Assembly: GCF_020382885.2 (NCBI RefSeq)
Contig: NC_058506.1
Span: forward strand, 12,812,318-12,876,317
DNA: 64,000 nt
Direction: 5' to 3'
Source of the DNA: Scatophagus argus
Taxonomy: Eukaryota > Chordata > Actinopteri > Scatophagidae
In this document: piece after piece, positions 37,226 through 64,000 of the stretch
Layout of the letters: every line of letters begins with the position of its first letter
Position numbering within the stretch: the first letter of the stretch is position 1
Notes under the pieces: model-generated
Databases searched by the model: none
Told to the model about the DNA's origin: nothing
Seen by the model: only the letters and a program-made list of their open reading frames with translations
Program-made: the position numbers and the translations under genes

Positions 37226-37846
37226 CTGAAATACAATCTGATTTGCATTCTGGTCCAGTGGAAAACAGATCTCACAGCATTGCTAAAGAAATGACAGCTG
37301 TGATGTCTAACGTAATGTGGGCAGTTGTTTTGGGTTTGGACGAGGGCTTCTGCTGGGATGTGGGCATGTGTGTCCAAGACATCTGTGAAATGAAGAGTTA
37401 CAGACAACAAGAACCAAGTTACATTATTGTGTTCCTTGGGTGAGTCATTGCGTTAGAGAGATTTTTTTTTTTTTTACATAATATCCATGATTGTAAGGTT
37501 GATGATAAAAGCAATTTATTTTAAATAAAAAATACAATAAGTTACAGAAGTCAGAATATGTGTTGATTATTGTAGGTGTTTGCGAAAAAAAAAACAGAAA
37601 GAAAATGGATGGATGTGTCTCCACATGAGGTGGAGCAGTTCTGGGTATCCTTATGGCACTGTAGCATATTTGTCTTTAACATATTGAAAGATGGATGTAG
37701 GATGGATGTGTTCATCAAGCTGAACAAAAATATACTGAGATGAAGTACTGTCATCTTGTGCTGATGCCGTCATTTGAAGCCAGAGACTGCACAGTAATAA
37801 TCAGCGCATACACACAGCTGAGCCAATCATGTTGTTTCACCTCCTT

Positions 37847-37852
37847 TTTATT
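37847..37852 (-). terminator. poly(A) signal of UGT copy 1
   Basis: AATAAA on the minus strand starts 285 bases after the stop codon. It is kept at the same distance in every unit: 42082-42087, 46334-46339, 50564-50569, 54465-54470, 58722-58727 and 62974-62979. Confidence 0.6.
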
Positions 37853-38136
37853 GCAGCAAATAACTAATCAAAACCAAACTTTTCAGCAAAATGAACATTT
37901 GAACATGTTACATAAAATGACACAAATCCTCGTTGGGAAAATGTATTTGTTGCTTACTTTGAGTTTTAGTGTGGCCCAAATCCTATCTGCTAACATGGAG
38001 GGAAATTGAGTTGTGACCTGTACTGGATCCAACCAACAGGAGGCGATCAACATGCCTTGGCTTCACTTTTGGGAAGGTCTTGTGTCATCCAGCTTTATAC
38101 ACAGTCAATTACATTTCTCAACAAATTTGACCTTAA

Positions 38137-40679
38137 TTAGTGTTGTTTGGTTTTGATCTTTCTTCTACTTCTGCAGCAAAGGAACCTGAAAATGGCTAAA
38201 GTAGAAATCAGCAGTACAGTCACCGCAGTCAGTAATACCAGAAGTACATCTAAACAGTAGTACGAGTACCAGGGCATCTTATATGACTCTGTACGCAGAT
38301 GCGGAGCACCTTTGTGACGCATTACATATTCCACCCAGAAGATACCCTGATCCATGGGTGCCATTGGCTGATCTCTGTGCAAACGTGACAGTCTTTGCAT
38401 GTTCTCTCTGTAGCTGTCTTGATGGAGTACATCTTTGATACCTTGCTCAAAACTGTGGCTATTAACATCACCCAGCTGAATGATCTTCCCAGCTCCTCTC
38501 TCCTGCAGACGGAGAAGGTTGTCATACTGGTCAAAGAACACGGGTATTCCGAGCACAGGGACCCCGTGGTAAATGGCCTCTTGGACTCCATTGGTTCCAC
38601 CATGAGCTACAAAGACTTTGGTCTGTGGGTGGCCCAGGAGGTCCTTCTGTGGCATCCAGTCCACTATCAGGGTGTTGTTGCCCAAAGTAGATGGACGTTC
38701 CCCTTTGTGCCTCCATATCACCTGAGTAGAATATGAAAAGAATCATGAAGACTTTGTTGTATACCTGTACACCACCAGATATATAATATCTAAATAAATT
38801 ATGAAACGTTGCTACCAACAACTACCACACAGCTGTAAATTATGTAATACTAACACTGATGAACATATAAGATAGATGCATTGCTATTTGAATAGCTCTG
38901 AGAATCTCTATGTCAAACAAGTAATTGGCAACTGGTGGTTTATGTCACTGCAAAAGTGAATCAGTGAGCAGGTGTTACCTTCTGAGGCAACTCAGCAAAG
39001 ACGCTGGCAATTTCATCTGCAATCTCTATCGGTAGAGCATTAACCAAAGTTCCCAAGGTCATGATGATCACTCCGTGGTCCCCAGAACTCTGTACAAACT
39101 CCTCCAGGTCTGCTGGCAGAGGTTGTGCTGGTTTGCACTGGAACCCTCCTATGTAGATGACATTTGGCATTGTGGGTCGCGGGAAATCAAACACAAAATC
39201 TGACCTGAACAGCCAAATGTCGGCTTCCTGAAGAAGAGAGATGATGTCACATCCACCCTCAATATATTTGTCACAGAGGACATCATAGCTTGGTCCAACT
39301 ATGAATTGCTGCTGGAACACTATGATGCTGTAGAAAAACATATTCTTGATCCTCTGGATGAAATCCATTTTGTCCGTCAAGCCCGATCCTGGCACTGGGA
39401 TGTAAGAGAGTGGTGAGGGAGCTATCACAAAGTGGCCTTCTCCACTGGTGATCCAGCGAACATTGAGCACCAAGGGCAGTTTCAGATACTTGGCAAGTAT
39501 TACCCCTGGTGCAATGCCTGGGTCAGTGAGAACAAGATCATATTTGGAATCCATTAAGCTTTTTATCATCTTTTCATCCTCCAATATTTGAACAAGGGCA
39601 TCAGACCACATTGCATGGACCTCAAAAATCATTGAAAGGAAATTCTTGATGAGTTTGATGAAAGTAAGTGCTGAAGCCCCCTCTCTCTGTGTCTGGAAAA
39701 ATCATTGAAAAATTGGGGTGAAAAAGTGATTATCTTGATATGTGAATGACTAAATGACCCACATGAGGTCTGAACATAATTCAGAATTACTTACTTTTAT
39801 TTGATCCTGCAAGAATACATCAAAAAAGGTTGCTATACTCTGATCCATTTCAAGGTTAATAGATGTGTAGAGAGGAGACTTTTCTGGGATGTACCAGCTG
39901 TTGGTGGCCCTGATCACAGTGATGTTGTGTCCCTTGGCATGAAGTTCTTCCAGGAGGATCTTCATATTGATCCAGTGGCTGCCATCGACTGGGAAAACCA
40001 GAATGTTTCCTCCATCGCAAGGTGGTGTGATGGAAATCAGAGATACACTGAGGAATGCAAATATTTCACACACACGATACAGTGGAGTAGTTCCTAAAAT
40101 ATATCAGAAAGATGATAAAATGAGAGCCCTTATTTTCGACATATAACTAGGAAGAAATTAGTTCAACACTTTATGGTTTGTATCAGAATCAGAATCAGAA
40201 TTGACTTTAATGCCATTGTAAGTGAAGAGGTTTCACATTACTAGGAATTTGTCTTGGTGATTGGTGCATACATAGAACGTAACGAGTAACATATAATAGT
40301 AGAATAAAATAGAATAAGGTAAAACAAAATAAAATAAGTAAAATAAATATGATTCTGGAGGTAGTTCAAAAGTGAGGTAGTGCTGGGTGGAAGTATAGTG
40401 CAAGTAAGTGAGGTAAACAGTGCAAATGAACAGCAGGTGGATAATGACATGAGCAGAAATCAGTGCCTGTACTGAAGTAACTAAAGTGCATGTTAGTCAG
40501 TTGGTGTTCAACAGTATCAGGTGAAAACAATGTGAAGAAAGAGTTCTGGCTGTTTAAAAAAAAACACATATCTGCATCTTTTTGATACTTTAACCAGTAG
40601 GAAACGTTGTACACTGCTAAGAAAATACAACATGATACCGGCAACAGCATGATCGTGTTCCTGAAATTTACTTACCCAT
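38137..40679 (-). CDS. UDP-glucuronosyltransferase, UGT5-like, copy 1
   Basis: ER membrane enzyme that transfers glucuronic acid from UDP-glucuronate to small lipophilic acceptors. Coding exons in transcript order: 40679-40676 (only ATG plus G), 40093-39795, 39692-38979 and 38721-38137. All junctions are GT/AG and the sum is 533 residues plus TAA, the usual UGT length. The first splice completes MGTTPLYR and leads into a signal peptide ending near residue 24-30. GSHW carries the likely catalytic base His41 and LTDP the partner Asp158. The UDP-sugar-binding half has DWMPQKDLLGHP and the UGT signature FVAHGGTNGVQEAIYHG (about 377-392), with DQ at 403-404. A membrane anchor at about 495-517 is followed by a basic tail ending KTKQH, a KxKxx ER-retrieval signal. 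N-glycosylation sequons lie at N58 and N354. GNILVFPVDGSHW and FPRPTMPN fit fish UGT5. Unique here: Val400 just before FFDQ (Leu in the others) and Glu186 (Asp in the others). Confidence 0.93.
40187..40520. mobile_element. 334-bp insertion in intron 1 of UGT copy 1
   Basis: Bounded by TATCAG direct repeats (40181-40186 and 40515-40520) and absent from copy 4, which has one TATCAG at the same place. It begins with AATCAG units and TTGACTTTAATGCCATTG, then an AAAATA-rich stretch. It resembles a dispersed fish repeat that starts with repeated AATCAG; I cannot name its family. No coding capacity. Confidence 0.6.
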
Positions 40680-42081
40680 TCTCAGGAGTGGCAACAGTAA
40701 TCCAACTTGCCCACAGACTGTCAGCTCAACTAAACGATTCCTTACATATTTGAGTTCAAACTCCACTCTCAGAGGTGATTGCTCCTTTCACATGTAAATA
40801 ACTCACATCTGACACGTGTGTCTTATGACGCTTTGTCGCTGTCATTCATGTTATACAAAGAATAAACAAACTGATTATCTCTTCCTTGTCATTTCATCAT
40901 AGAGTTTTACTCTCTCATTTTATAATGTTGTTAAACTATTAAGAGTATCCTGTGCAGCGCAGTTTTGTGAATGTTTCTCTCTGCCAAGCAAGAACAATAC
41001 CTCGATTAGAAGGACCTGTGTCCTCTTTCACAAGATCAGTAGCATTGGTTATGCAATATTAATCTGCATGATTTAGTCCACTAAGTTTCATGCATATTGT
41101 GTTAAAATAATACAAATGTATACTTGTAGAAATGGTTCCCTGAGTACAATATGTATAAGTCTTCATGCTTTTGTCACATAGTGCAGTTATTTTCTTCACG
41201 GGCTGACCTGGTGGTTTGTTACATATGTCACACAAAGTTGAATGTGGGCTGCAGGTCACAGGACTGAACTCAGATGACCGGAGGCATTTACTCTCATGTC
41301 AGTAGTGAAGGTGGTATTCTGATCCTTTAAATAAGTAAAAGTACCAATATGCCACACATGTACATACATACAAGTAAGAGTCATTACACTGAAGATATTA
41401 CTTAATGTATAAGTAAACATGTGTAAGTGTCAGGAAATGTTCTTAAAGTATCAAAATAATCCCCCCGTCTCTGTTCTGGTGTTGTGTATTAATACCATTG
41501 AAACTGATGCATTAATGTGTAAACTGCATTTTACTGTTATAGCTGGGCAAGGTGAAGTTAATTTTTTAACAATATTATATAAGGTTATAACTAATGATTG
41601 TTTTTGTTATGGATAAAATTGAGAATTGTTCTTTCATCCAGCTATTGATTCAGTTTACGGTAACTTCAGATAAAGCAGGAAATTCTCATATTTTGAAGCT
41701 GGAACCTTGAAATTTCTGAAATTGTTGAATGGAATATAAACATTATTCAGAATTACTTAGCAAAATAGCTACAAATGACACACATATACAACAAATTAGT
41801 TACGTGATCATTTTGCTAATAGTTTTGTACATAAGTAGGTTTTAATACTGTTGGGTGGTAAATCTTCTGCAATGCATCATATTTTAAAGGCTCTATATAT
41901 TACAAAGGACATTTATGTCATGAAATAAATAATCACTTCAATGTGACTGAAAGAGGATGATCAATAAGTCACTGATTATTATGGAAAATGTTTCTTATAA
42001 AGCAAGGTATTTAGCCAGAGACTGCACAGTAATAATCACCGCATACACGCAGCTGAGCCAATCATGTTGTTTCACCTCCTT
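40680..42081. other. spacer between UGT copies 1 and 2 (model for all spacers)
   Basis: No gene was recognised. The spacer holds the upstream region of copy 1, then A/T-rich sequence up to the poly(A) signal of copy 2. The matching spacers are 44932-46333, 49162-50563, 53063-54464, 57320-58721 and 61572-62973. All are 1,402 bases long and almost identical. Their short repeated open frames (65-95 codons) reflect recent duplication, not coding. Confidence 0.7.
40742..40819 (-). promoter_or_regulatory. candidate upstream region of UGT copy 1 (E-box, forkhead site, ATG-TAA)
   Basis: Upstream of the ATG at 40679 on the minus strand lie an ATG directly followed by TAA (40747-40742), a forkhead-type TTATTTACA (40801-40793) and a palindromic E-box ACACGTGT (40819-40812). 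A TATAAAAT at 40924-40917 could be the TATA box. The same words occur in the upstream regions of the other five complete copies, though copy 4 has TATAAAGT. The start of transcription cannot be fixed from sequence alone. Confidence 0.35.
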
Positions 42082-42371
42082 TTTATTGCAGCAAATAACT
42101 AATCAAAACCAAACTAATCAGCAAAGTGAACATTTCAACATGTTACATAAAATGACACAAATCCTCGTTGGGAAAATGTATTTGTTGCTTACTTTGAGTT
42201 TTAGTGTGACCCAAATCCTATCAGCTAACATGGAGGGAAATTGAGTTGTGACCTGTAATGGATCCCACCAACAGGAGGCGATCAACATGCCTTGGCTTCA
42301 CTTTTGGGAAGGTCTTGTGTCATCCAGCTTTATACACAGTCAATTACATTTCTCAACAAATTTGACCTTAA

Positions 42372-44931
42372 TTAGTGTTGTTTGGTTTTGATCTTTCTTC
42401 TACGTCTGCAGCAAAGGAACCTGAAAATGGATAAAGTAGAAAGCAGCAGTACAGTCACCACAGTCAGTATTACCAGAAGTACATCTAAACAGTAGTACGA
42501 GTACCAGGGCATCTTATATGACTCTGTACGCAGATGCGGAGCACCTTTGTGACGCATTACATATTCCACCCAGAAGATACCCTGATCCATGGGTGCCATT
42601 GGCTGATCTCTGTGCAAACGTGACAGTCTTTGCATGTTCTCTCTGTAGCTGTCTTGATGGAGTACATCTTTGATACCTTGCTCAAAACTGTGGCTATTAA
42701 CATCACCCAGCTGAATGATCTTCCCAGCTCCTCTCTCCTGCAGACGGAGAAGGTTGTCATACTGGTCAAAGAACAAGGGTATTCCGAGCACAGGGACCCC
42801 GTGGTAAATGGCCTCTTGGACTCCATTGGTTCCACCATGAGCTACAAAGACTTTGGTCTGTGGGTGGCCCAGGAGGTCCTTCTGTGGCATCCAGTCCACT
42901 ATCAGGGTGTTGTTGCCCAAAGTAGATGGACGTTCCCCTTTGTGCCTCCATATCACCTGAGTAGAATATGAAAAGAATCATGAAGACTTTGTTGTATACC
43001 TGTACACCACCAGATATATAATATCTAAATAAATTATGAAACGTTGCTACCAACAACTACCACACAGCTGTAAATTATGTAAAACTAACACTGATGAACA
43101 TATAAGATAGATGCATTGCTATTTGAATAGCTCTGAGAATCTCTATGTCAAACAAGTAATTGGCAACTGGTGATTTATGTCACTGCAAAAGTGAATCAGT
43201 GAGCAGGTGTTACCTTCTGAGGCAACTTAGCAAAGACGCTGGCAATTTCATCTGCAATCTCTATCGGTAGAGCATTAACCAAAGTTCCCAAGGTCATGAT
43301 GATCACTCCGTGGTCCCCAGAACTCTGTACAAACTCCTCCAGGTCTGCTGGCAGAGGTTGTGCTGGTTTGCACTGGAACCCTCCTATGTAGATGACATTT
43401 GGCATTGTGGGCCGTGGGAAATCAAACACAAAATCTGACCTGAACAGCCAAATGTCGGCTTCCTGAAGAAGAGAGATGATGTCACATCCACCCTCAATAT
43501 ATTTGTCACAGAGGACATCATAGCTTGGTCCAACTATGAATTGCTGCTGGAACACTATGATGCTGTAGAAAAACATATTCTTGATCCTCTGGATGAAATC
43601 CATTTTGTCCGTCAAGCCTGATCCTGGCACTGGGATGTAAGAGAGTGGTGAGGGAGCTATCACAAAGTGGCCGTCTCCACTGGTGATCCAGCGAACATTG
43701 AGCACCAAGGGCAGTTTCAGATACTTGGCTAGTATAATCCCTGGTGCCATGGCTGGGTCAGTGAGAACAAGATCATATTTGGAATCCATTAAGCTTTTTA
43801 TCATCTTTTCATCCTCCAATATTTGAACAAGGGCATCAGACCACACTGCATGGGCCTCAAAAATCATTGAAAGGAAATTCTTGATGAGTTTGATGAAAGT
43901 AAGTGCTGAAGCCCCCTCTCTCTGTGCCTGGAAAAATCATTAAAAGATTCAGGTGAAAAAGTGATTATCTTGATATGTGAATGACTAAATGACCCACGTG
44001 AGGTCTGAACATAATTCAGAATTACTTACTTTTATTTGATCCTGCAAGAATACATCAAAAAAGTTCTCCATACTCTGATCCATTTCAAGGTTAATAGATG
44101 TGTAGAGAGGAGACTTTTCTGGGATGTACCAGCTGTTGGAGGCCCTGATCACAGTGATGTTGTGTCCCTTGGCATGAAGTTCTTCCAGGAGGATCTTCAT
44201 ATTGATCCAGTGGCTGCCATCGACTGGGAAAACCAGAATGTTTCCTCCATCGCAAGGTGGTGTGATGGAAATCAGAGATACACTGAGGAATGCAAATATT
44301 CCACACACACGATACAGTGGAGTAGTTCCTAAAATATATCAGAGAGATGATAAAATGAGAGCCCTTGTTTTCAACATATCATTAAGAGGAAATTAGTTCA
44401 ACACTTTATGGTTTGTATCAGAATCAGAATCAGAATCAGAATCAGAATTGACTTTATTGCCATTGTAAGTGAAGAGGTTTCACATTACTAGGAATTTGTC
44501 TTGGTGATTGGTGCATACATAGAACGTAACAAGTAACATATAATAGTAGAATAAAGTAAAATAAAATAGAATAAGGTAAAACAAAATAAAATAAGTAAAA
44601 TAAATATGATTCTGGAGGTAGTTCAAAAGTGAGGTAGTGCTGGGTGGAAGTATAGTGCAAGTAGGTGAGGTAAACAGTGCAAATGAACAGCAGGTGGATA
44701 ATGACATGAGCAGAAATCAGTGCCTGTACTGAAGTAACTAAAGTGCATGTTAGTCAGTTGGTGTTCAACAGTATCAGGTGAAAACAATGTGAAGAAAGAG
44801 TTCTGGCTGTTTAAAAAAAAAGCATGCATCTTACTGATACTTTAACCAGTAGGAAACGTTGTACACTGCTAAGAAAATACAACATGATACCGGCAACAGC
44901 ATGATCGTGTTCCTGAAATTTACTTACCCAT
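42372..44931 (-). CDS. UDP-glucuronosyltransferase, UGT5-like, copy 2
   Basis: Same four-exon layout as copy 1: 44931-44928, 44328-44030, 43927-43214 and 42956-42372, giving 533 residues with all splice sites intact. It belongs to the second sequence class: Gly11, Ser65, MEN at 88-90, Ala102, Ala126, Val129, AMAPGI at 160-165 and Lys335. Its anchor variant is Ile502, Val505, Leu511, Ser515, with Arg524 in the tail. The encoded protein appears identical to that of copy 6, so the two are very recent duplicates or have been homogenised. His41, Asp158, the signature and the KxKxx tail are all present. Intron 1 carries the insertion in its longer, 356-bp form. Confidence 0.93.
44422..44777. mobile_element. 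356-bp insertion in intron 1 of UGT copy 2
   Basis: The same insertion as in copy 1, 22 bases longer: two more AATCAG units at the left end and 10 extra bases in the A-rich part. TATCAG direct repeats lie at 44416-44421 and 44772-44777. Confidence 0.6.
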
Positions 44932-46623
44932 TCTCAGGAGTGGCAACAGTAATCCAACTTGCCCACAGACTGTCAGCTCAACTAAACGATTCCTTACATA
45001 TTTGAGTTCAAACTCCACTCTCAGAGGTGATTGCTCCTTTCACATGTAAATAACTCACATCTGACACGTGTGTCTTATGACGCTTTGTCGCTGTCATTCA
45101 TGTTATACAAAGAATAAACAAACTGATTATCTCTTCCTTGTCATTTCATCATAGAGTTTTACTCTCTCATTTTATAATGTTGTTAAACTATTAAGAGTAT
45201 CCTGTGCAGCGCAGTTTTGTGAATGTTTCTCTCTGCCAAGCAAGAACAATACCTCGATTAGAAGGACCTGTGTCCTCTTTCACAAGATCAGTAGCATTGG
45301 TTATGCAATATTAATCTGCATGATTTAGTCCACTAAGTTTCATGCATATTGTGTTAAAATAATACAAATGAATACTTGTAGAAATGGTTCCCTGAGTACA
45401 ATATGTATAAGTCTTCATGCTTTTGTCACATAATGCAGTTATTTTCTTCACGGGCTGACCTGGTGGTTTGTTACATATGTCACACCAAGTTGAATGTAGG
45501 CTGCAGGTCACAGGACTGAACTCAGATGACCGGAGGCATTTACTCTCATGTCAGTAGTGAAGGTGGTATTCTGATCCTTTAAATAAGTAAAAGTACCAAT
45601 ATGCCACACATGTACATACATACAAGTAAGAGTCATTACACTGAAGATATTACTTAATGTATAAGTAAACATGTGTAAGTGTCAGGAAATGTTCTTAAAG
45701 TATCAAAATAATCCCCCCATCTCTGTTCTGGTGTTGTGTATTAATACCATTGAAACTGATGCATTAATGTGTAAACTGCATTTTACTGTTATAGCTGGGC
45801 AAGGTGAAGTTAATTTTTTAACAATATTATATAAGGTTATAACTAATGATTGTTTTTGTTATGGATAAAATTGAGAATTGTTCTTTCATCCAGCTATTGA
45901 TTCAGTTTACGGTAACTTCAGATAAAGCAGGAAATTCTCATATTTTGAAGCTGGAACCTTGAAATTTCTGAAATTGTTGAATGGAATATAAACATTATTC
46001 AGAATTACTTAGCAAAATAGCTACAAATGACACACATATACAACAAATTAGTTACGTGATCATTTTGCTAATAGTTTTGTACATAAGTAGGTTTTAATAC
46101 TGTTGGGTGGTAAATCTTCTGCAATGCATCATATTTTAAAGGCTCTATATATTACAAAGGACATTTATGTCATGAAATAAATAATCACTTCAATGTGACT
46201 GAAAGAGGATGATCAATAAGTCACTGATTATTATGGAAAATGTTTCTTATAAAGCAAGGTATTTAGCCAGAGACTGCACAGTAATAATCACGGCATACAC
46301 GCAGCTGAGCCAATCATGTTGTTTCACCTCCTTTTTATTGCAGCAAATAACTAATCAAAACCAAACTGATCAGCAAAGTGAACATTTCAACATGTTACAT
46401 AAAATGACACAAATCCTCTTTGGGAAAATGTATTTGTTGCTTACTTTGAGTTTTAGTGTGACCCAAATCCTATCAGCTAACATGGAGGGAAATTGAGTTG
46501 TGACCTGTACTGGATCCAACCAACAGGAGGCGATCAACATGCCTTGGCTTCACTTTTGGGAAGGTCTTGTGTCATCCAGCTTTATACACAGTCAATTACA
46601 TTTCTCAACAAATTTGACCTTAA

Positions 46624-49161
46624 TTAGTGTTGTTTGGTTTTGATCTTTCTTCTACTTCTGCAGCAAAGGAACCTGAAAATGGCTAAAGTAGAAAGCAGCA
46701 GTACAGTCACCACAGTCAGTATTACCAGAAGTACATCTAAACAGTAGTACGAGTACCAGGGCATCTTATATGACTCTGTACGCAGATGAGGAGCACCTTT
46801 GTGGCGCATTACATATTCCACCCAGAAGATACCCTGATCCATGGGTGCCATTGGCTGATCTCTGTGCAAACGTGACAGTCTTTGCATGTTCTCTCTGTAG
46901 CTGTCTTGATGGAGTACATCTTTGATACCTTGCTCAAAACTGTGGCTATTAACATCACCCAGCTCAATGATCTTCCCAGCTCCTCTCTCCTGCAGACGGA
47001 GAAGGTTGTCATACTGGTCAAAGAACAAGGGTATTCCGAGCACAGGGACCCCGTGGTAAATGGCCTCTTGGACTCCATTGGTTCCACCATGAGCTACAAA
47101 GACTTTGGTCTGTGGGTGGCCCAGGAGGTCCTTCTGTGGCATCCAGTCCACTATCAGGGTGTTGTTGCCCAAAGTAGATGGACGTTCCCCTTTGTGCCTC
47201 CATATCACCTGAGTAGAATATGAAAAGAATCATGAAGACTTTGTTGTATACCTGTACACCACCAGATATATAATATCTAAATAAATTATGAAACGTCGCT
47301 ACCAACAACTACCACACAGCTGTAAATTATGTAAAACTAACACTGATGAACATATAAGATAGATGCATTGCTATTTGAATAGCTCTGAGAATCTCTATGT
47401 CAAACAAGTAATTGGCAACTGGTGATTTATGTCACTGCAAAAGTGAATCAGTGAGCAGGTGTTACCTTCTGAGGCAACTTAGCAAAGACGCTGGCAATTT
47501 CATCTGCAATCTCTATCGGTAGAGCATTAACCAAAGTTCCCAAGGTCATGATGATCACTCCGTGGTCCCCAGAACTCTGTACAAACTCCTCCAGGTCTGC
47601 TGGCAGAGGTTGTGCTGGTTTGCACTGGAACCCTCCTATGTAGATGACATTTGGCATTGTGGGCCGCGGGAAATCAAACACAAAATCTGACCTGAACAGC
47701 CAAATGTCGGCTTCCTGAAGAAGAGAGATGATGTCACATCCACCCTCAATATATTTGTCACAGAGGACATCATAGCTTGGTCCAACTATGAATTGCTGCT
47801 GGAACACTATGATGCTGTAGAAAAACATATTCTTGATCCTCTGGATGAAATCCATTTTGTCCGTCAAGCCCGATCCTGGCACTGGGATGTAAGAGAGTGG
47901 TGAGGGAGCTATCACAAAGTGGCCGTCTCCACTGGTGATCCAGCGAACATTGAGCACCAAGGGCAGTTTCAGATACTTGGCTAGTATAATCCCTGGTGCC
48001 ATGGCTGGGTCAGTGAGAACAAGATCATATTTGGAATCCATTAAGCTTTTTATCATCTTTTCATCCTCCAATATTTGAACAAGGGCATCAGACCACACTG
48101 CATGGGCCTCAAAAATCATTGAAAGGAAATTCTTGATGAGTTTGATGAAAGTAAGTGCTGAAGCCCTCTCTCTCTGTGCCTGGAAAAATCATTAAAAGAT
48201 TCAGGTGAAAAAGTGATTATCTTGATATGTGAATGACTAAATGACCCACGTGAGGTCTGAACATAATTCAGAATTACTTACTTTTATTTGATCCTGCAAG
48301 AATACATCAAAAAAGTTCTCCATACTCTGATCCATTTCAAGGTTAATAGATGTGTAGAGAGGAGACTTTTCTGGGATGTACCAGCTGTTGGTGGCCCTGA
48401 TCACAGTGATGTTGTGTCCCTTGGCATGAAGTTCTTCCAGGAGGATCTTCATATTGATCCAGTGGCTGCCATCGACTGGGAAAACCAGAATGTTTCCTCC
48501 ATCGCAAGGTGGTGTGATGGAAATCAGACATACACTGAGGAATGCAAATATTTCACACACACGATACAGTGGAGTAGTTCCTAAAATATATCAGAAAGAT
48601 GATAAAATGAGAGCCCTTATTTTCGACATATAACTAGGAAGAAATTAGTTCAACACTTTATGGTTTGTATCAGAATCAGAATCAGAATTGACTTTATTGC
48701 CATTGTAAGTGAAGAGGTTTCACATTACTAGGAATTTGTCTTGGTGATTGGTGCATACATAGAACGTAACGAGTAACATATAATAGTAGAATAAAATAGA
48801 ATAAGGTAAAACAAAATAAAATAAGTAAAATAAATATGATTCTGGAGGTAGTTCAAAAGTGAGGTAGTGCAGGGTGGAAGTATAGTGCAAGTAGGTGAGG
48901 TAAACAGTGCAAATGAACAGCAGCTGGATAATGACATGAGCAGAAATCAGTGCCTGTACTGAAGTAACTAAAGTGCATGTTAGTCAGTTGGTGTTCAACA
49001 GTATCAGGTGAAAACAATGTGAAGAAAGAGTTCTGGCTGTTTAAAAAAAAAGCATGCATCTTACTGATACTTTAACCAATAGGAAACGTTGTACACTGCT
49101 AAGAAAATACAACATGATACCGGCAACAGCATGATCGTGTTCCTGAAATTTACTTACCCAT
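46624..49161 (-). CDS. UDP-glucuronosyltransferase, UGT5-like, copy 3
   Basis: Exons 49161-49158, 48580-48282, 48179-47466 and 47208-46624; 533 residues, all splice sites and phases intact. The catalytic half is of the copy 2 class (MEN at 88-90, AMAPGI, Lys335), but residues 11 and 65 (Glu, Thr) are those of copies 1 and 5, so exon 2 is a mixture. Changes found only here: Cys19 in the signal peptide, Arg106 in place of Gly, and Glu421 in place of Gln. The anchor variant is Ile502, Val505, Leu511, Ala515 with Ser524. Active-site residues and the ER-retrieval tail are kept, so it should be functional. Confidence 0.93.
48674..49007. mobile_element. 334-bp insertion in intron 1 of UGT copy 3
   Basis: The short form with two AATCAG units, as in copy 1. 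TATCAG direct repeats lie at 48668-48673 and 49002-49007. Confidence 0.6.
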
Positions 49162-50853
49162 TCTCAGGAGTGGCAACAGTAATCCAACTTGCCCACAGAC
49201 TGTCAGCTCAACTAAACGATTCCTTACATATTTGAGTTCAAACTCCACTCTCAGAGGTGATTGCTCCTTTCACATGTAAATAACTCACATCTGACACGTG
49301 TGTCTTATGACGCTTTGTCGCTGTCATTCATGTTATACAAAGAATAAACAAACTGATTATCTCTTCCTTGTCATTTCATCATAGAGTTTTACTCTCTCAT
49401 TTTATAATGTTGTTAAACTATTAAGAGTATCCTGTGCAGCGCAGTTTTGTGAATGTTTCTCTCTGCCAAGCAAGAACAATACCTCGATTAGAAGGACCTG
49501 TGTCCTCTTTCACAAGATCAGTAGCATTGGTTATGCAATATTAATCTGCATGATTTAGTCCACTAAGTTTCATGCATATGGTGTTAAAATAATACAAATG
49601 AATACCTGTAGAAATGGTTCCCTGAGTACAATATGTATAAGTCTTCATGCTTTTGCCACATAATGCAGTTATTTTCTTCACGGGCTGACCTGGTGGTTTG
49701 TTACATATGTCACACCAAGTTGAATGTAGGCTGCAGGTCACAGGACTGAACTCAGATGACCGGAGGCATTTACTCTCATGTCAGTAGTGAAGGTGGTATT
49801 CTGATCCTTTAAATAAGTAAAAGTACCAATATGCCACACATGTACATACATACAAGTAAGAGTCATTACACTGAAGATATTACTTAATGTATAAGTAAAC
49901 ATGTGTAAGTGTCAGGAAATGTTCTTAAAGTATCAAAATAATCCCCCCATCTCTGTTATGGCATTGTGTATTTATACCATTGAAACTGATGCATTAATGT
50001 GTAAACTGCATTTTACTGTTATAGCTGGGCAAGGTGAAGTTAATTTTTTAACAATATTATATAAGGTTATAACTAATGATTGTTTTTGTTATGGATAAAA
50101 TTGAGAATTGTTCTTTCATCCAGCTATTGATTCAGTTTACGGTAACTTCAGATAAAGCAGGAAATTCTCATATTTTGAAGCTGGAACCTTGAAATTTCTG
50201 AAATTGTTGAATGGAATATAAACATTATTCAGAATTACTTAGCAAAATAGCTACAAATGACACACATATACAACAAATTAGTTACGTGATCATTTTGCTA
50301 ATAGTTTTGTACATAAGTAGGTTTTAATACTGTTGGGTGGTAAATCTTCTGCAATGCATCATATTTTAAAGGCTCTATATATTACAAAGGACATTTATGT
50401 CATGAAATAAATAATCACTTTAGTTTGACTGAAAGAGGATCATCAATAAGTCACTGATTATTATGGAAAATGTTTCTTATAAAGCAAGGTATTAAGCCAG
50501 AGACTGCACAGTAATAATCACGGCATACACGCAGCTGAGCCAATCATGTTGTTTCACCTCCTTTTTATTGCAGCAAATAGCTAATCAAAACCAAACTGAT
50601 CAGCAAAGTGAACATTTCAACATGTTACATAAAATGACACAAATCCTCGTTGGGAAAATGTATTTGTTGCTTACTTTGAGTTTTAGTGTGGCCCAAATCC
50701 TATCTGCTAACATGGAGGGAAATTGAGTTGTGACCTGTACTGGATCCAACCAACAGGAGGCGATCAACATGCCTTGGCTTCACTTTTGGGAAGGTCTTGT
50801 GTCATCCAGCTTTATACACAGTCAATTACATTTCTCAACAAATTTGACCTTAA

Positions 50854-53062: not shown

Positions 53063-54754
53063 TCTCAGGAGTGGCAACAGTAATCCCACTTTCCCACAGA
53101 CTGTCAGCTCAACTAAACGATTCCTTACATATTTGAGTTCAAACTCCACTCTCAGAGGTGATTGCTCCTTTCACATGTAAATAACTCACATCTGACACGT
53201 GTGTCTTATGACGCTTTGTCGCTGTCATTCATGTTATACAAAGAATAAACAAACTGATTATCTCTTCCTTGTCATTTCATCATAGAGTTTTACTCTCTCA
53301 CTTTATAATGTTGTTAAACTATTAAGAGTATCCTGTGCAGCGCAGTTTTGTGAATGTTTCTCTCTGCCAAGCAAGAACAATACCTCGATTAGAAGGACCT
53401 GTGTCCTCTTTCACAAGATCAGTAGCATTGGTTATGCAATATTAATCTGCATGATTTAGTCCACTAAGTTTCATGCATATTGTGTTAAAATAATACAAAT
53501 GAATACCTGTAGAAAGGGTTCCCTGAGTACAATATGTATAAGTCTTCATGCTTTTGCCACATAATGCAGTTATTTTCTTCACGGGCTGACCTGGTGGTTT
53601 GTTACATATGTCACACAAAGTTGAATGTGGGCTGCAGGTCACAGGACTGAACTCAGATGACCGGAGGCATTTACTCTCATGTCAGTAGTGAAGGTGGTAT
53701 TCTGATCCTTTAAATAAGTAAAAGTACCAATATGCCACACATGTACATACATACAAGTAAGAGTCATTACACTGAAGAAATTACTTAATGTATAAGTAAA
53801 CATGTGTAAGTGTCAGGAAATGTTCTTAAAGTATCAAAATAATCCCCCCATCTCTGTTATGGCGTTGTGTATTTATACCATTGAAACTGATGCATTAATG
53901 TGTAAACTGCATTTTACTGTTATAGCTGGGCAAGGTGAAGTTAATTTTTTAACAATATTATATAAGGTTGTAACTAATGATTGTTTTTATTATGGATTAA
54001 ATTGAGAATTGTTCTTTCATCCAGCTATTGATTCAGTTTACCGTAACTTCAGATAAAGCAGGAAATTCTCATATTTTGAAGCTGGAACCTTGAAATTTCT
54101 GAAATTGTTGAATGGAATACAAACATTATTTAGAATTACTTAGCAAAATAGCTGCAAATGACACACATATACAACAAATTAGTTACGTGATCATTTTGCT
54201 AATAGTTTTGTACATAAGTAGGTTTTAATACTGTTGGGTGGTAAATCTTCTGCAATGCATCATATTTTAAAGGCTCTATATATTACAAAGGACATTTATG
54301 TCATGAAATAAATAATCACTTCAATTTGACTGAAAGAGGATCATCAATAAGGCACTGATTATTATGGAAAATGTTTCTTATAAAGCAAGGTATTAAGCCA
54401 GAGACTGCACAGTAATAATCACCGCATACACGCAGCTGAGCCAATCATGTTGTTTCCCCTCCTTTTTATTGCAGCAAATAACTAATCAAAACCAAACTGA
54501 TCAGCAAAGTGAACATTTCAACATGTTACATAAAATGACACAAATCCTCTTTGGGAAAATGTATTTGTTGCTTACTTTGAGTTTTAGTGTGACCCAAATC
54601 CTATCAGCTAACATGGAGGGAAATTGAGTTGTGACCTGTACTGGATCCAACCAACAGGAGGCGATCAACATGCCTTGGCTTCACTTTTGGGAAGGTCTTG
54701 TGTCATCCAGCTTTATACACAGTCAATTACATTTCTCAACAAATTTGACCTTAA

Positions 54755-57319
54755 TTAGTGTTGTTTGGTTTTGATCTTTCTTCTACTTCTGCAGCAAAGG
54801 AACCTGAAAATGGCTAAAGTAGAAATCAGCAGTACAGTCACCGCAGTCAGTAATACCAGAAGTACATCTAAACAGTAGTACGAGTACCAGGGCATCTTAT
54901 ATGACTCTGTACGCAGATGCGGAGCACCTTTGTGACGCATTACATATTCCACCCAGAAGATACCCTGATCCATGGGTGCCATTGGCTGATCTCTGTGCAA
55001 ACGTGACAGTCTTTGCATGTTCTCTCTGTAGCTGTCTTGATGGAGTACATCTTTGATACCTTGCTCAAAACTGTGGCTATTAACATCACCCAGCTGAATG
55101 ATCTTCCCAGCTCCTCTCTCCTGCAGACGGAGAAGGTTGTCATACTGGTCAAAGAACAAGGGTATTCCGAGCACAGGGACCCCGTGGTAAATGGCCTCTT
55201 GGACTCCATTGGTTCCACCATGAGCTACAAAGACTTTGGTCTGTGGGTGGCCCAGGAGGTCCTTCTGTGGCATCCAGTCCACTATCAGGGTGTTGTTGCC
55301 CAAAGTAGATGGACGTTCCCCTTTGTGCCTCCATATCACCTGAGTAGAATATGAAAAGAATCATGAAGACTTTGTTGTATACCTGTACACCACCAGATAT
55401 ATAATATCTAAATAAATTATGAAACGTTGCTACCAACAACTACCACACAGCTGTAAATTATGTAATACTAACACTGATGAACATATAAGATAGATGCATT
55501 GCTATTTGAATAGCTCTGAAAATCTCTATGTCAAACAAGTAATTGGCAACTGGTGGTTTATGTCACTGCAAAAGTGAATCAGTGAGCAGGTGTTACCTTC
55601 TGAGGCAACTCAGCAAAGACGCTGGCAATTTCATCTGCAATCTCTATCGGTAGAGCATTAACCAAAGTTCCCAAGGTCATGATGATCACTCCGTGGTCCC
55701 CAGAACTCTGTACAAACTCCTCCAGGTCTGCTGGCAGAGGTTGTGCTGGTTTGCACTGGAACCCTCCTATGTAGATGACATTTGGCATTGTGGGCCGCGG
55801 GAAATCAAACACAAAATCTGACCTGAACAGCCAAATGTCGGCTTCCTGAAGAAGAGAGATGATGTCACATCCACCCTCAATATATTTGTCACAGAGGACA
55901 TCATAGCTTGGTCCAACTATGAATTGCTGCTGGAACACTATGATGCTGTAGAAAAACATATTCTTGATCCTCTGGATGAAATCCATTTTGTCCGTCAAGC
56001 CCGATCCTGGCACTGGGATGTAAGAGAGTGGTGAGGGAGCTATCACAAAGTGGCCGTCTCCACTGGTGATCCAGCGAACATTGAGCACCAAGGGCAGTTT
56101 CAGATACTTGGCAAGTATTACCCCTGGTGCAATGCCTGGGTCAGTGAGAACAAGATCATATTTGGAATCCATTAAGCTTTTTATCATCTTTTCATCCTCC
56201 AATATTTGAACAAGGGCATCAGACCACATTGCATGGACCTCAAAAATCATTGAAAGGAAATTCTTGATGAGTTTGATGAAAGTAAGTGCTGAAGCCCCCT
56301 CTCTCTGTGTCTGGAAAAATCATTGAAAAATTGGGGTGAAAAAGTGATTATCTTGATATGTGAATGACTAAATGACCCACATGAGGTCTGAACATAATTC
56401 AGAATTACTTACTTTTATTTGATCCTGCAAGAATACATCAAAAAAGGTTGCTATACTCTGATCCATTTCAAGGTTAATAGATGTGTAGAGAGGAGACTTT
56501 TCTGGGATGTACCAGCTGTTGGTGGCCCTGATCACAGTGATGTTGTGTCCCTTGGCATGAAGTTCTTCCAGGAGGATCTTCATATTGATCCAGTGGCTGC
56601 CATCGACTGGGAAAACCAGAATGTTTCCTCCATCGCAAGGTGGTGTGATGGAAATCAGAGATACACTGAGGAATGCAAATATTTCACACACACGATACAG
56701 TGGAGTAGTTCCTAAAATATATCAGAGAGATGATAAAATGAGAGCCCTTGTTTTCAACATATCATTAAGAGGAAATTAGTTCAACACTTTATGGTTTGTA
56801 TCAGAATCAGAATCAGAATCAGAATCAGAATTGACTTTATTGCCATTGTAAGTGAAGAGGTTTCACATTACTAGGAATTTGTCTTGGTGATTGGTGCATA
56901 CATAGAACGTAACAAGTAACATATAATAGTAGAATAAAGTAAAATAAAATAGAATAAGGTAAAACAAAATAAAATAAGTAAAATAAATATGGTTCTGGAG
57001 GTAGTTCAAAAGTGAGGTAGTGCTGGGTGGAAGTATAGTGCAAGTAGGTGAGGTAAACAGTGCAAATGAACAGCAGGTGGATAATGACATGAGCAGAAAT
57101 CAGTGCCTGTACTGAAGTAACTAAAGTGCATGTTAGTCAGTTGGTGTTCAACAGTATCAGGTGAAAACAATGTGAAGAAAGAGTTCTGGCTGTTTAAAAA
57201 AAAACACATATCTGCATCTTTTTGATACTTTAACCAGTAGGAAACGTTGTACACTGCTAAGAAAATACAACATGATACCGGCAACAGCATGATCGTGTTC
57301 CTGAAATTTACTTACCCAT
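54755..57319 (-). CDS. UDP-glucuronosyltransferase, UGT5-like, copy 5
   Basis: Exons 57319-57316, 56711-56413, 56310-55597 and 55339-54755; 533 residues, intact. The protein is a near twin of copy 1 (Thr65, IAT at 88-90, Thr102, GIAPGV, Glu335, and the Leu502/Ala505/Ile511/Ala515/Ser524 anchor). It differs from copy 1 at Asp186 and Leu400, where it agrees with the rest of the array. Intron 1, however, carries the long insertion form and the single-base changes of copies 2 and 6, so the gene is a mosaic. The signature, catalytic His/Asp pair and KxKxx tail are present. Confidence 0.93.
56805..57160. mobile_element. 356-bp insertion in intron 1 of UGT copy 5
   Basis: Long form with four AATCAG units, as in copies 2 and 6. 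It shares GGTTCTGG with copy 6, where copy 2 has GATTCTGG. TATCAG direct repeats lie at 56799-56804 and 57155-57160. Confidence 0.6.
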
Positions 57320-59011
57320 TCTCAGGAGTGGCAACAGTAATCCAACTTGCCCACAGACTGTCAGCTCAACTAAACGATTCCTTACATATTTGAGTTCAAA
57401 CTCCACTCTCAGAGGTGATTGCTCCTTTCACATGTAAATAACTCACATCTGACACGTGTGTCTTATGACGCTTTGTCGCTGTCATTCATGTTATACAAAG
57501 AATAAACAAACTGATTATCTCTTCCTTGTCATTTCATCATAGAGTTTTACTCTCTCATTTTATAATGTTGTTAAACTATTAAGAGTATCCTGTGCAGCGC
57601 AGTTTTGTGAATGTTTCTCTCTGCCAAGCAAGAACAATACCTCGATTAGAAGGACCTGTGTCCTCTTTCACAAGATCAGTAGCATTGGTTATGCAATATT
57701 AATCTGCATGATTTAGTCCACTAAGTTTCATGCATATGGTGTTAAAATAATACAAATGAATACCTGTAGAAATGGTTCCCTGAGTACAATATGTATAAGT
57801 CTTCATGCTTTTGCCACATAATGCAGTTATTTTCTTCACGGGCTGACCTGGTGGTTTGTTACATATGTCACACCAAGTTGAATGTAGGCTGCAGGTCACA
57901 GGACTGAACTCAGATGACCGGAGGCATTTACTCTCATGTCAGTAGTGAAGGTGGTATTCTGATCCTTTAAATAAGTAAAAGTACCAATATGCCACACATG
58001 TACATACATACAAGTAAGAGTCATTACACTGAAGATATTACTTAATGTATAAGTAAACATGTGTAAGTGTCAGGAAATGTTCTTAAAGTATCAAAATAAT
58101 CCCCCCATCTCTGTTCTGGTGTTGTGTATTAATACCATTGAAACTGATGCATTAATGTGTAAACTGCATTTTACTGTTATAGCTGGGCAAGGTGAAGTTA
58201 ATTTTTTAACAATATTATATAAGGTTATAACTAATGATTGTTTTTGTTATGGATAAAATTGAGAATTGTTCTTTCATCCAGCTATTGATTCAGTTTACGG
58301 TAACTTCAGATAAAGCAGGAAATTCTCATATTTTGAAGCTGGAACCTTGAAATTTCTGAAATTGTTGAATGGAATATAAACATTATTCAGAATTACTTAG
58401 CAAAATAGCTACAAATGACACACATATACAACAAATTAGTTACGTGGTCATTTTGCTAATAGTTTTGTACATAAGTAGGTTTTAATACTGTTGGGTGGTA
58501 AATCTTCTGCAATGCATCATATTTTAAAGGCTCTATATATTACAAAGGACATTTATGTCATGAAATAAATAATCACTTCAATGTGACTGAAAGAGGATGA
58601 TCAATAAGTCACTGATTATTATGGAAAATGTTTCTTATAAAGCAAGGTATTTAGCCAGAGACTGCACAGTAATAATCACCGCATACACGCAGCTGAGCCA
58701 ATCATGTTGTTTCACCTCCTTTTTATTGCAGCAAATAACTAATCAAAACCAAACTAATCAGCAAAGTGAACATTTCAACATGTTACATAAAATGACACAA
58801 ATCCTCTTTGGGAAAATGTATTTGTTGCTTACTTTGAGTTTTAGTGTGACCCAAATCCTATCAGCTAACATGGAGGGAAATTGAGTTGTGACCTGTAATG
58901 GATCCCACCAACAGGAGGCGATCAACATGCCTTGGCTTCACTTTTGGGAAGGTCTTGTGTCATCCAGCTTTATACACAGTCAATTACATTTCTCAACAAA
59001 TTTGACCTTAA

Positions 59012-61571
59012 TTAGTGTTGTTTGGTTTTGATCTTTCTTCTACGTCTGCAGCAAAGGAACCTGAAAATGGATAAAGTAGAAAGCAGCAGTACAGTCACCA
59101 CAGTCAGTATTACCAGAAGTACATCTAAACAGTAGTACGAGTACCAGGGCATCTTATATGACTCTGTACGCAGATGCGGAGCACCTTTGTGACGCATTAC
59201 ATATTCCACCCAGAAGATACCCTGATCCATGGGTGCCATTGGCTGATCTCTGTGCAAACGTGACAGTCTTTGCATGTTCTCTCTGTAGCTGTCTTGATGG
59301 AGTACATCTTTGATACCTTGCTCAAAACTGTGGCTATTAACATCACCCAGCTGAATGATCTTCCCAGCTCCTCTCTCCTGCAGACGGAGAAGGTTGTCAT
59401 ACTGGTCAAAGAACAAGGGTATTCCGAGCACAGGGACCCCGTGGTAAATGGCCTCTTGGACTCCATTGGTTCCACCATGAGCTACAAAGACTTTGGTCTG
59501 TGGGTGGCCCAGGAGGTCCTTCTGTGGCATCCAGTCCACTATCAGGGTGTTGTTGCCCAAAGTAGATGGACGTTCCCCTTTGTGCCTCCATATCACCTGA
59601 GTAGAATATGAAAAGAATCATGAAGACTTTGTTGTATACCTGTACACCACCAGATATATAATATCTAAATAAATTATGAAACGTTGCTACCAACAACTAC
59701 CACACAGCTGTAAATTATGTAAAACTAACACTGATGAACATATAAGATAGATGCATTGCTATTTGAATAGCTCTGAGAATCTCTATGTCAAACAAGTAAT
59801 TGGCAACTGGTGATTTATGTCACTGCAAAAGTGAATCAGTGAGCAGGTGTTACCTTCTGAGGCAACTTAGCAAAGACGCTGGCAATTTCATCTGCAATCT
59901 CTATCGGTAGAGCATTAACCAAAGTTCCCAAGGTCATGATGATCACTCCGTGGTCCCCAGAACTCTGTACAAACTCCTCCAGGTCTGCTGGCAGAGGTTG
60001 TGCTGGTTTGCACTGGAACCCTCCTATGTAGATGACATTTGGCATTGTGGGCCGTGGGAAATCAAACACAAAATCTGACCTGAACAGCCAAATGTCGGCT
60101 TCCTGAAGAAGAGAGATGATGTCACATCCACCCTCAATATATTTGTCACAGAGGACATCATAGCTTGGTCCAACTATGAATTGCTGCTGGAACACTATGA
60201 TGCTGTAGAAAAACATATTCTTGATCCTCTGGATGAAATCCATTTTGTCCGTCAAGCCTGATCCTGGCACTGGGATGTAAGAGAGTGGTGAGGGAGCTAT
60301 CACAAAGTGGCCGTCTCCACTGGTGATCCAGCGAACATTGAGCACCAAGGGCAGTTTCAGATACTTGGCTAGTATAATCCCTGGTGCCATGGCTGGGTCA
60401 GTGAGAACAAGATCATATTTGGAATCCATTAAGCTTTTTATCATCTTTTCATCCTCCAATATTTGAACAAGGGCATCAGACCACACTGCATGGGCCTCAA
60501 AAATCATTGAAAGGAAATTCTTGATGAGTTTGATGAAAGTAAGTGCTGAAGCCCCCTCTCTCTGTGCCTGGAAAAATCATTAAAAGATTCAGGTGAAAAA
60601 GTGATTATCTTGATATGTGAATGACTAAATGACCCACGTGAGGTCTGAACATAATTCAGAATTACTTACTTTTATTTGATCCTGCAAGAATACATCAAAA
60701 AAGTTCTCCATACTCTGATCCATTTCAAGGTTAATAGATGTGTAGAGAGGAGACTTTTCTGGGATGTACCAGCTGTTGGAGGCCCTGATCACAGTGATGT
60801 TGTGTCCCTTGGCATGAAGTTCTTCCAGGAGGATCTTCATATTGATCCAGTGGCTGCCATCGACTGGGAAAACCAGAATGTTTCCTCCATCGCAAGGTGG
60901 TGTGATGGAAATCAGAGATACACTGAGGAATGCAAATATTCCACACACACGATACAGTGGAGTAGTTCCTAAAATATATCAGAGAGATGATAAAATGAGA
61001 GCCCTTGTTTTCAACATATCATTAAGAGGAAATTAGTTCAACACTTTATGGTTTGTATCAGAATCAGAATCAGAATCAGAATCAGAATTGACTTTATTGC
61101 CATTGTAAGTGAAGAGGTTTCACATTACTAGGAATTTGTCTTGGTGATTGGTGCATACATAGAACGTAACAAGTAACATATAATAGTAGAATAAAGTAAA
61201 ATAAAATAGAATAAGGTAAAACAAAATAAAATAAGTAAAATAAATATGGTTCTGGAGGTAGTTCAAAAGTGAGGTAGTGCTGGGTGGAAGTATAGTGCAA
61301 GTAGGTGAGGTAAACAGTGCAAATGAACAGCAGGTGGATAATGACATGAGCAGAAATCAGTGCCTGTACTGAAGTAACTAAAGTGCATGTTAGTCAGTTG
61401 GTGTTCAACAGTATCAGGTGAAAACAATGTGAAGAAAGAGTTCTGGCTGTTTAAAAAAAAAGCATGCATCTTACTGATACTTTAACCAGTAGGAAACGTT
61501 GTACACTGCTAAGAAAATACAACATGATACCGGCAACAGCATGATCGTGTTCCTGAAATTTACTTACCCAT
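59012..61571 (-). CDS. UDP-glucuronosyltransferase, UGT5-like, copy 6
   Basis: Exons 61571-61568, 60968-60670, 60567-59854 and 59596-59012; 533 residues. The protein appears identical to copy 2 and the gene has the same length to the base (2,560). The spacing to the next gene (4,252) also equals that of copy 2. This points to a block duplication that produced copies 1-2 and 5-6. One base difference was noticed in intron 1 (GGTTCTGG against GATTCTGG). Active-site residues, anchor and tail are intact. Confidence 0.93.
61062..61417. mobile_element. 356-bp insertion in intron 1 of UGT copy 6
   Basis: Long form with four AATCAG units. TATCAG direct repeats lie at 61056-61061 and 61412-61417. Confidence 0.6.
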
Positions 61572-63263
61572 TCTCAGGAGTGGCAACAGTAATCCAACTT
61601 GCCCACAGACTGTCAGCTCAACTAAACGATTCCTTACATATTTGAGTTCAAACTCCACTCTCAGAGGTGATTGCTCCTTTCACATGTAAATAACTCACAT
61701 CTGACACGTGTGTCTTATGACGCTTTGTCGCTGTCATTCATGTTATACAAAGAATAAACAAACTGATTATCTCTTCCTTGTCATTTCATCATAGAGTTTT
61801 ACTCTCTCATTTTATAATGTTGTTAAACTATTAAGAGTATCCTGTGCAGCGCAGTTTTGTGAATGTTTCTCTCTGCCAAGCAAGAACAATACCTCGATTA
61901 GAAGGACCTGTGTCCTCTTTCACAAGATCAGTAGCATTGGTTATGCAATATTAATCTGCATGATTTAGTCCACTAAGTTTCATGCATATGGTGTTAAAAT
62001 AATACAAATGAATACCTGTAGAAATGGTTCCCTGAGTACAATATGTATAAGTCTTCATGCTTTTGCCACATAATGCAGTTATTTTCTTCACGGGCTGACC
62101 TGGTGGTTTGTTACATATGTCACACCAAGTTGAATGTAGGCTGCAGGTCACAGGACTGAACTCAGATGACCGGAGGCATTTACTCTCATGTCAGTAGTGA
62201 AGGTGGTATTCTGATCCTTTAAATAAGTAAAAGTACCAATATGCCACACATGTACATACATACAAGTAAGAGTCATTACACTGAAGATATTACTTAATGT
62301 ATAAGTAAACATGTGTAAGTGTCAGGAAATGTTCTTAAAGTATCAAAATAATCCCCCCATCTCTGTTCTGGTGTTGTGTATTTATACCATTGAAACTGAT
62401 GCATTAATGTGTAAACTGCATTTTACTGTTATAGCTGGGCAAGGTGAAGTTAATTTTTTAACAATATTATATAAGGTTATAACTAATGATTGTTTTTGTT
62501 ATGGATAAAATTGAGAATTGTTCTTTCATCCAGCTATTGATTCAGTTTACGGTAACTTCAGATAAAGCAGGAAATTCTCATATTTTGAAGCTGGAACCTT
62601 GAAATTTCTGAAATTGTTGAATGGAATATAAACATTATTCAGAATTACTTAGCAAAATAGCTACAAATGACACACATATACAACAAATTAGTTACGTGAT
62701 CATTTTGCTAATAGTTTTGTACATAAGTAGGTTTTAATACTGTTGGGTGGTAAATCTTCTGCAATGCATCATATTTTAAAGGCTCTATATATTACAAAGG
62801 ACATTTATGTCATGAAATAAATAATCACTTTAGTTTGACTGAAAGAGGATCATCAATAAGTCACTGATTATTATGGAAAATGTTTCTTATAAAGCAAGGT
62901 ATTAAGCCAGAGACTGCACAGTAATAATCACCGCATACACGCAGCTGAGCCAATCATGTTGTTTCACCTCCTTTTTATTGCAGCAAATAGCTAATCAAAA
63001 CCAAACTGATCAGCAAAGTGAACATTTCAACATGTTACATAAAATGACACAAATCCTCGTTGGGAAAATGTATTTGTTGCTTACTTTGAGTTTTAGTGTG
63101 GCCCAAATCCTATCTGCTAACATGGAGGGAAATTGAGTTGTGACCTGTACTGGATCCAACCAACAGGAGGCGATCAACATGCCTTGGCTTCACTTTTGGG
63201 AAGGTCTTGTGTCATCCAGCTTTATACACAGTCAATTACATTTCTCAACAAATTTGACCTTAA

Positions 63264-63848
63264 TTAGTGTTGTTTGGTTTTGATCTTTCTTCTACGTCTG
63301 CAGCAAAGGAACCTGAAAATGGATAAAGTAGAAATCAGCAGTACAGTCACCGCAGTCAGTAATACCAGAAGTACATCTAAACAGTAGTACGAGTACCAGG
63401 GCATCTTATATGACTCTGTACGCAGATGCGGAGCACCTTTGTGACGCATTACATATTCCACCCAGAAGATACCCTGATCCATGGGTGCCATTGGCTGATC
63501 TCTGTGCAAACGTGACAGTCTTTGCATGTTCTCTCTGTAGCTGTCTTGATGGAGTACATCTTTGATACCTTGCTCAAAACTGTGGCTATTAACATCACCC
63601 AGCTGAATGATCTTCCCAGCTCCTCTCTCCTGCAGACGGAGAAGGTTGTCATACTGGTCAAAGAACAAGGGTATTCCGAGCACAGGGACCCCGTGGTAAA
63701 TGGCCTCTTGGACTCCATTGGTTCCACCATGAGCTACAAAGACTTTGGTCTGTGGGTGGCCCAGGAGGTCCTTCTGTGGCATCCAGTCCACTATCAGGGT
63801 GTTGTTGCCCAAAGTAGATGGACGTTCCCCTTTGTGCCTCCATATCAC
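63264..63848 (-). CDS. UDP-glucuronosyltransferase, UGT5-like, copy 7 (last exon only; cut by window end)
   Basis: Only the 3' exon is inside the window: residues 340-533 with the UDP-sugar-binding segment, UGT signature, membrane anchor and KTKQH tail. The acceptor AG lies directly upstream at 63850-63849. The anchor variant (Leu502, Ala505, Ile511, Ser515, Arg524) is a combination not found in the other six copies. The intron that follows on the + side (63849-64000) matches the other units, so the gene very probably continues beyond the window; whether it is intact is unknown. Confidence 0.9.
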   Translation of the reverse strand: MIWRHKGERPSTLGNNTLIVDWMPQKDLLGHPQTKVFVAHGGTNGVQEAIYHGVPVLGIPLFFDQYDNLLRLQERGAGKIIQLGDVNSHSFEQGIKDVLHQDSYRENMQRLSRLHRDQPMAPMDQGIFWVEYVMRHKGAPHLRTESYKMPWYSYYCLDVLLVLLTAVTVLLISTLSIFRFLCCRRRRKIKTKQH

Positions 63849-64000
63849 CTGAGTAGAATATGAAAAGAATCATGAAGACTTTGTTGTATACCTGTACACC
63901 ACCAGATATATAATATCTAAATAAATTATGAAACGTTGCTACCAACAACTACCACACAGCTGTAAATTATGTAAAACTAACACTGATGAACATATAAGAT

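Follow-up and report, generated by a model that had tools for sequence, protein, structure and literature searches.

According to the available portions of the paper by Huang and Wu (2010; PMC2819257), Ugt5 genes are mostly single-exon ORFs, the exceptions being Ugt5g2 and the Ugt5d genes of medaka and stickleback, whose three exons measure 288, 714 and 585 bp. In the same portions, Ugt5d is tandem-duplicated in medaka, seems to have been lost in pufferfishes and is described as a likely pseudogene in stickleback. Tandem UGT5 genes also make up the 5a, 5b and 5c clusters of zebrafish and a group of five Ugt5b genes in tetraodon, all described there as single-exon ORFs, and two of the five tetraodon copies are apparently pseudogenes (PMC2819257). 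In the vertebrate Ugt1 and Ugt2 clusters, as described in the accessible parts of the study by Li and co-authors (PMC1885805), diversity is concentrated in the acceptor-binding half, positively selected sites fall in the acceptor pocket, and gene conversion is not predominant, dog Ugt1 excepted. Constant exons are shared in Ugt1 and Ugt2a, and zebrafish Ugt1 has undergone a block duplication of two variable exons (PMC1885805). The red/green opsin duplicates are homogenised and retain a divergence peak at functional codons, which the available part of the source describes as a mark of selection against homogenisation (PMC3924837).

The window analyzed here, a 64,000-nucleotide stretch of the Scatophagus argus genome (contig NC_058506.1), holds what is very probably a teleost tandem array of whole Ugt5d-type genes that have been duplicated and homogenised by exchange. 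Like medaka and stickleback Ugt5d, these are intron-bearing Ugt5-like genes, and like medaka Ugt5d they are tandemly duplicated; in contrast to the available account of those species (PMC2819257), there are at least seven nearly identical copies. The array shares its tandem arrangement with the zebrafish and tetraodon clusters but has four coding exons per gene instead of one, and none of its six complete genes is broken. It resembles the Ugt1 and Ugt2 clusters in the concentration of diversity in the acceptor-binding half and zebrafish Ugt1 in its probable block duplication, whereas whole genes are repeated here and exchange is plentiful. With the opsins it shares homogenisation and a divergence peak, but the peak here includes intron 2 and silent sites, and selection is suggestive only. 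The array exemplifies well a type of gene array that is already familiar, built from a known type of detoxification-enzyme gene, and does not represent a new kind of system. A search of the open-access literature on ugt5/UGT tandem duplication, judged mostly by title, found no report of it.

Organization of the array and gene structure

Self-alignment and alignment of the units revealed a head-to-tail array that starts at 37778 and continues past the window end at 64000. The window holds six full units and a truncated seventh, all with their genes on the minus strand. Unit 1 (37778..42012, 4235 bp) has its CDS at 40676-40679, 39795-40093, 38979-39692 and 38137-38721; unit 2 (42013..46264, 4252 bp) at 44928-44931, 44030-44328, 43214-43927 and 42372-42956; unit 3 (46265..50493, 4229 bp) at 49158-49161, 48282-48580, 47466-48179 and 46624-47208; unit 4 (50494..54394, 3901 bp) at 53059-53062, 52512-52810, 51696-52409 and 50854-51438; unit 5 (54395..58652, 4258 bp) at 57316-57319, 56413-56711, 55597-56310 and 54755-55339; and unit 6 (58653..62903, 4251 bp) at 61568-61571, 60670-60968, 59854-60567 and 59012-59596. 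Unit 7 (62904..64000) is cut by the window end, and its visible part includes only the last coding exon (63264-63848), which is open over 195 codons including the stop.

Pairwise identity among the six complete units, introns and spacers included, is 97.87-99.76% (15 pairs), and the 1097 bp of unit 7 match them at 98.72-99.64%. The alignments therefore bear out the first-pass annotation of seven tandem copies at about 4.2 kb with similar introns and spacers, except that unit 4 measures only 3.9 kb, about 350 bp less than the other complete units, because it lacks an insertion in intron 1. A search of positions 1-37776 with the unit-1 protein found no second UGT gene (best tblastn E 0.94).

The coding exons measure 4, 299, 714 and 585 bp in all six complete genes, each of which translates into 533 amino acids and ends in a single stop. 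In all six, coding exons 1-3 are followed by GT donors and coding exons 2-4 are preceded by AG acceptors, so that the earlier claim of fully retained splice sites and an intact 533-codon frame stands. A search for AATAAA or ATTAAA located a poly(A)-signal pattern beginning 285 nt past the stop in all seven units; it is AATAAA in the units read by eye, unit 1 among them (37847..37852, minus strand). About 70 bp separate the unit-1 signal from the left edge of the array, and a unit therefore seems to contain a whole transcription unit. In order of transcription, a complete unit would comprise some 1.3 kb of 5'-flanking sequence, a small first exon with the start codon, two exons encoding the acceptor half, the second of which would extend into the donor half, and a final exon encoding the remaining part of the donor half together with the membrane tail, followed by the poly(A) signal; the units are predicted to be transcribed and spliced in this way.

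In unit 1 (40093-40679), the start codon occupies a small 5' exon of its own (ATGG followed by GTAAGT), and a CTG stands at the point expected for the beginning of a first exon of 288 bp; to judge from exon lengths only, the start may have moved upstream. The 300 bp 5' of the start codon (40680-40979 and homologues) contain 3 variable sites, compared with 27 in 1032 positions further upstream, and are the least variable of nine stretches counted. A conserved promoter perhaps lies there. The genes may instead depend on one shared promoter, as for zebrafish Ugt5a1-5a4, but an ATG exon and a 5' flank are present in each of the six complete units. No RNA family matched at gathering scores in the window.

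Assignment to the UGT superfamily

The unit-1 protein matches PF00201 over residues 30-524 of 533 (E 6.9e-148), which places it in the UGT superfamily, and the other five proteins differ from it at 2-19 of the 533 residues. Its best relatives of solved structure are the donor domains of human UGT2B enzymes (UGT2B15, 2.7e-59). The UGT signature (PS00375) occurs in all seven units. All six complete genes keep H41 and D158, which are presumably the catalytic His and Asp, as judged from their motif context (compare the available part of PMC1885805). The enzymes would sit in the ER membrane, given a hydrophobic stretch and a K-x-K-x-x tail recognized by eye, and would conjugate small hydrophobic compounds with a UDP-sugar.

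A UGT5 gene is expected to have its whole ORF in one large exon, and four coding exons were found here; this does not exclude Ugt5d, since the defining paper, in its available portions, exempts Ugt5d from that rule (PMC2819257). We file the array under Ugt5d because its 714- and 585-bp exons equal those of medaka and stickleback Ugt5d exactly; the first part of the coding sequence comprises 4 + 299 bp, the start codon being carried by an additional exon further upstream, instead of a single 288-bp exon. The data thus support the UGT5-like identity proposed earlier, and the exon lengths probably refine it to Ugt5d, for which the support is good but incomplete.

An insertion in intron 1

Five of the six complete units carry an insertion of 334-356 bp in intron 1. 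In unit 1 it spans 40182..40515 (334 bp); one end consists of (ATCAGA)n, and each edge bears a TATCAG. Its homologues lie at 44417-44772, 48669-49002, 56800-57155 and 61057-61412 in units 2, 3, 5 and 6. It is absent from unit 4, in which the empty site (52898/52899) holds one copy of the flanking TATCAG, and no other copy was found in 1-37776 at E 0.01. We prefer the reading that unit 4 never had the insertion, because this unit also carries 39 private substitutions. The empty site is no proof of this ancestral state, since the TATCAG repeats at both edges also allow a precise secondary deletion. On the gene strand, an AATAAA/ATTAAA pattern stands just before the repeat tail in all five copies, and the insertion could therefore serve for polyadenylation within the intron, unit 4 excepted.

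Probable exchange between the copies

The closest relatives in the array are four units apart. Units 2 and 6 differ at 10 of 4251 aligned bp, none of them in the CDS, and their coding sequences are identical; units 1 and 5 differ at 34 of 4235, with two amino-acid differences. Both pairs being offset by four units, a block duplication of several units would have produced units 5 and 6 from units 1 and 2, or the reverse. A plain four-unit duplication was rejected as insufficient, since unit 7 is closer to unit 4 (4 differences in 1097 bp) than to unit 3 (14 in 1096).

Relationships also change along the unit. Unit 5 groups with unit 1 in exons 2-3 and with units 2 and 6 in part of intron 1, whereas unit 3 groups with unit 1 in that part of intron 1 and with units 2 and 6 in much of exons 2-3, and is a mosaic of unit-1-like and unit-2-like stretches. 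Of the 1540 pairs formed by the 56 informative sites of the six units, 692 are incompatible, and the site patterns require a minimum of 12 recombination events. Within five neighbouring sites the incompatibility is 0.28, whereas 5000 shuffles gave 0.45 on average, and none of them reached the compatibility observed among near sites. Misaligned meiotic exchange, by unequal crossing-over and gene conversion, would both create copies and keep them alike.

These data bear on the possibility that the array goes back to a single gene multiplied in one very recent burst, after which new mutations arose but no exchange took place. The identity of 97.9-99.8%, which extends to introns and spacers, and the six open frames would be expected from such a burst, but the conflicting site patterns along the unit, with unit 5 joining first unit 1 and then units 2 and 6, the presence of the insertion in five of six complete copies and the requirement for at least 12 recombination events argue against it. 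Those events largely refute a burst unless the mosaics are assembly errors, and we regard it as highly improbable. Exchange between the copies is thus favoured over recency alone as the explanation of their likeness. Of the two alternatives in the first-pass annotation, very recent expansion or strong homogenisation, recency alone accounts less well for the array, and exchange on top of duplication is favoured by the recombination events, the mosaics and the insertion-free unit 4.

Alternatively, the array could in part be a product of assembly, if unit 5 onward were the other haplotype of units 1-3 joined in, or if the mosaics were switch errors. The constant four-unit offset of both close pairs and the alignment of 37777-47360 with 54395-64000 at 99.16% are consistent with this, as is the 0.24% difference between units 2 and 6, a value of the order of heterozygosity in fish. 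However, unit 7 is more like unit 4 than unit 3, the differences between units 1 and 5 are clustered and not even (run of 7 differing sites, p 0.0055), and the junction between units 4 and 5 is the same as at other units, in a window with no N bases. An assembly origin for part of the array, in either form, is quite improbable, while the mosaics and near-duplicates could to some extent come from this source.

The array is useful because shared tracts and one insertion allow its copies to be ordered relative to one another, so that long reads and enzyme assays can separate dose, exchange and acceptor diversification. Heavy exchange in a Ugt5d array would also set it apart from the Ugt1 and Ugt2 clusters, a contrast that deserves attention because conversion is not predominant there in the available description (PMC1885805).

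Divergence at the acceptor domain

Divergence between the copies, with 121 variable sites in 3895 fully ungapped columns, is highest in intron 2 and the neighbouring codons for the acceptor domain in exons 2 and 3 (approximately 39430..39930, minus strand, in unit 1; alignment columns about 1659-2150). The peak, at intron 2 and codons 65-167, has 30 variable sites in 400 columns (p 0.0005 versus random placement), and intron 2 has 11 in 102 positions; with unit 4 left out the peak weakens (19 of 88 sites, p 0.03). The acceptor domain as a whole has 39 of the 121 variable sites in 882 of the 3895 columns, where 27.4 would be expected. Codons 60-190, a stretch picked after the data had been seen, have 25 variable sites in 393 positions against 87 in 2627 of noncoding DNA (p 0.006), comprising 18 nonsynonymous and 7 silent changes (ratio 0.80).

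Three acceptor-site types can be distinguished at codons 88-165, one in units 1 and 5, one in units 2, 3 and 6, and one in unit 4; within its type, unit 3 carries a single change of its own, at 106. Among the variable residues are 160, 161, 163 and 165, which follow the presumed catalytic D158. Residue 160 lines up by offset with F153 of UGT1A1, which stands two residues after D151 and was placed in the acceptor pocket by Li and co-authors, in the available part of their paper (PMC1885805).

It is possible, if rather unlikely, that selection holds these three types apart against homogenisation, as in the red/green opsin genes. The peak, the variability of codons 60-190 and the position of the residues beside D158 are in line with this view, and such peaks are the signature described for it (PMC3924837, as far as available). 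Amino-acid change is nevertheless not in excess over silent change, and the peak depends in part on unit 4. Moreover, p values from uniform placement are too generous, because conversion itself clusters differences, and a simulation of neutral conversion was used instead (600 runs per tract mean, ignoring population polymorphism and unequal crossing-over). With tract means of 100, 300, 600, 1200 and 2500 bp, the observed peak was reached in 0.2, 4.0, 5.8, 12.2 and 11.0% of the runs, and the acceptor-domain share in 1.3, 2.8, 3.2, 5.0 and 6.8%. For the same tract means, the runs with a similar number of variable sites gave 0.2, 4.0, 6.4, 16.3 and 16.8% for the peak and 1.3, 2.9, 2.9, 3.1 and 12.1% for the share.

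Acceptor diversification is consequently suggestive only, as silent sites and intron 2 share the peak and the neutral simulation reaches it. The selection for acceptor diversity proposed in the first-pass annotation retains the peak at acceptor codons in its favour, set against a pN/pS of 0.63 and neutral-conversion p values of about 0.03-0.06 for tracts of 300-600 bp. A more specific proposal would be that whole-gene exchange keeps the donor domain and promoter alike while selection separates and reshuffles at least three acceptor types, in an opsin-like manner; we consider this unlikely, but, if true, it would represent a small in-cluster generator of diversity within the UGT superfamily, for whose Ugt1 and Ugt2 clusters a birth-and-death mode of evolution has been described. 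As far as can be predicted from the sequences, the array may provide dose, through identical copies, together with a modest spread of substrates, through the three acceptor-site types.

Possible coding constraint

The whole-CDS pN/pS of 0.63 (29 nonsynonymous and 15 silent changes in six genes, classed by approximation against the commonest codon) does not depart significantly from neutrality (lower tail p 0.10). With this value and the ratio of 0.80 for codons 60-190, codon counts do not show positive selection. None of the six indel events falls in the CDS, although two of them are single columns at arbitrary unit edges, and no nonsense change was seen where 1.6 would be expected among 44 substitutions. 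Donor codons 286-490 have 5 changes in 615 positions against 87 in 2627 of noncoding DNA (p 0.0002), a deficit that may reflect homogenisation because silent sites are also low there (2 of 151.5). Codons 491-533 have 5 nonsynonymous changes versus 1 silent. The case for purifying selection on the array genes is thus weak.

Genomic neighbourhood

Two of the nine ORFs compared in the left flank matched Pfam. The ORF at 916-1341 (plus strand) has zebrafish TRPC4a as its best match (4.2e-70), and that at 2339-2692 (plus) has a weak Ion_trans match below the Pfam cut-off; the interval 916-2692 (plus) contains exon-like ORFs of a TRPC4-type channel, of which the ORF at 5082-5852, without a Pfam match, may by eye be the tail. 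No solved-structure match was found for the ORF at 18677-19000. The ORF at 19197-19571 (plus) has periostin as its best match (1.5e-43) and a Fasciclin domain, and that at 26977-27294 (plus), without a Pfam match, contains TKVTRVI-type repeats of about 13 residues; we take the latter to be the C-terminal part of a periostin-like gene (19197-27294, plus). Linkage of trpc4 and periostin is conserved in vertebrates. As the TRPC4 and periostin ORFs read on the plus strand and the array on the minus strand, the array and the periostin-like gene converge.
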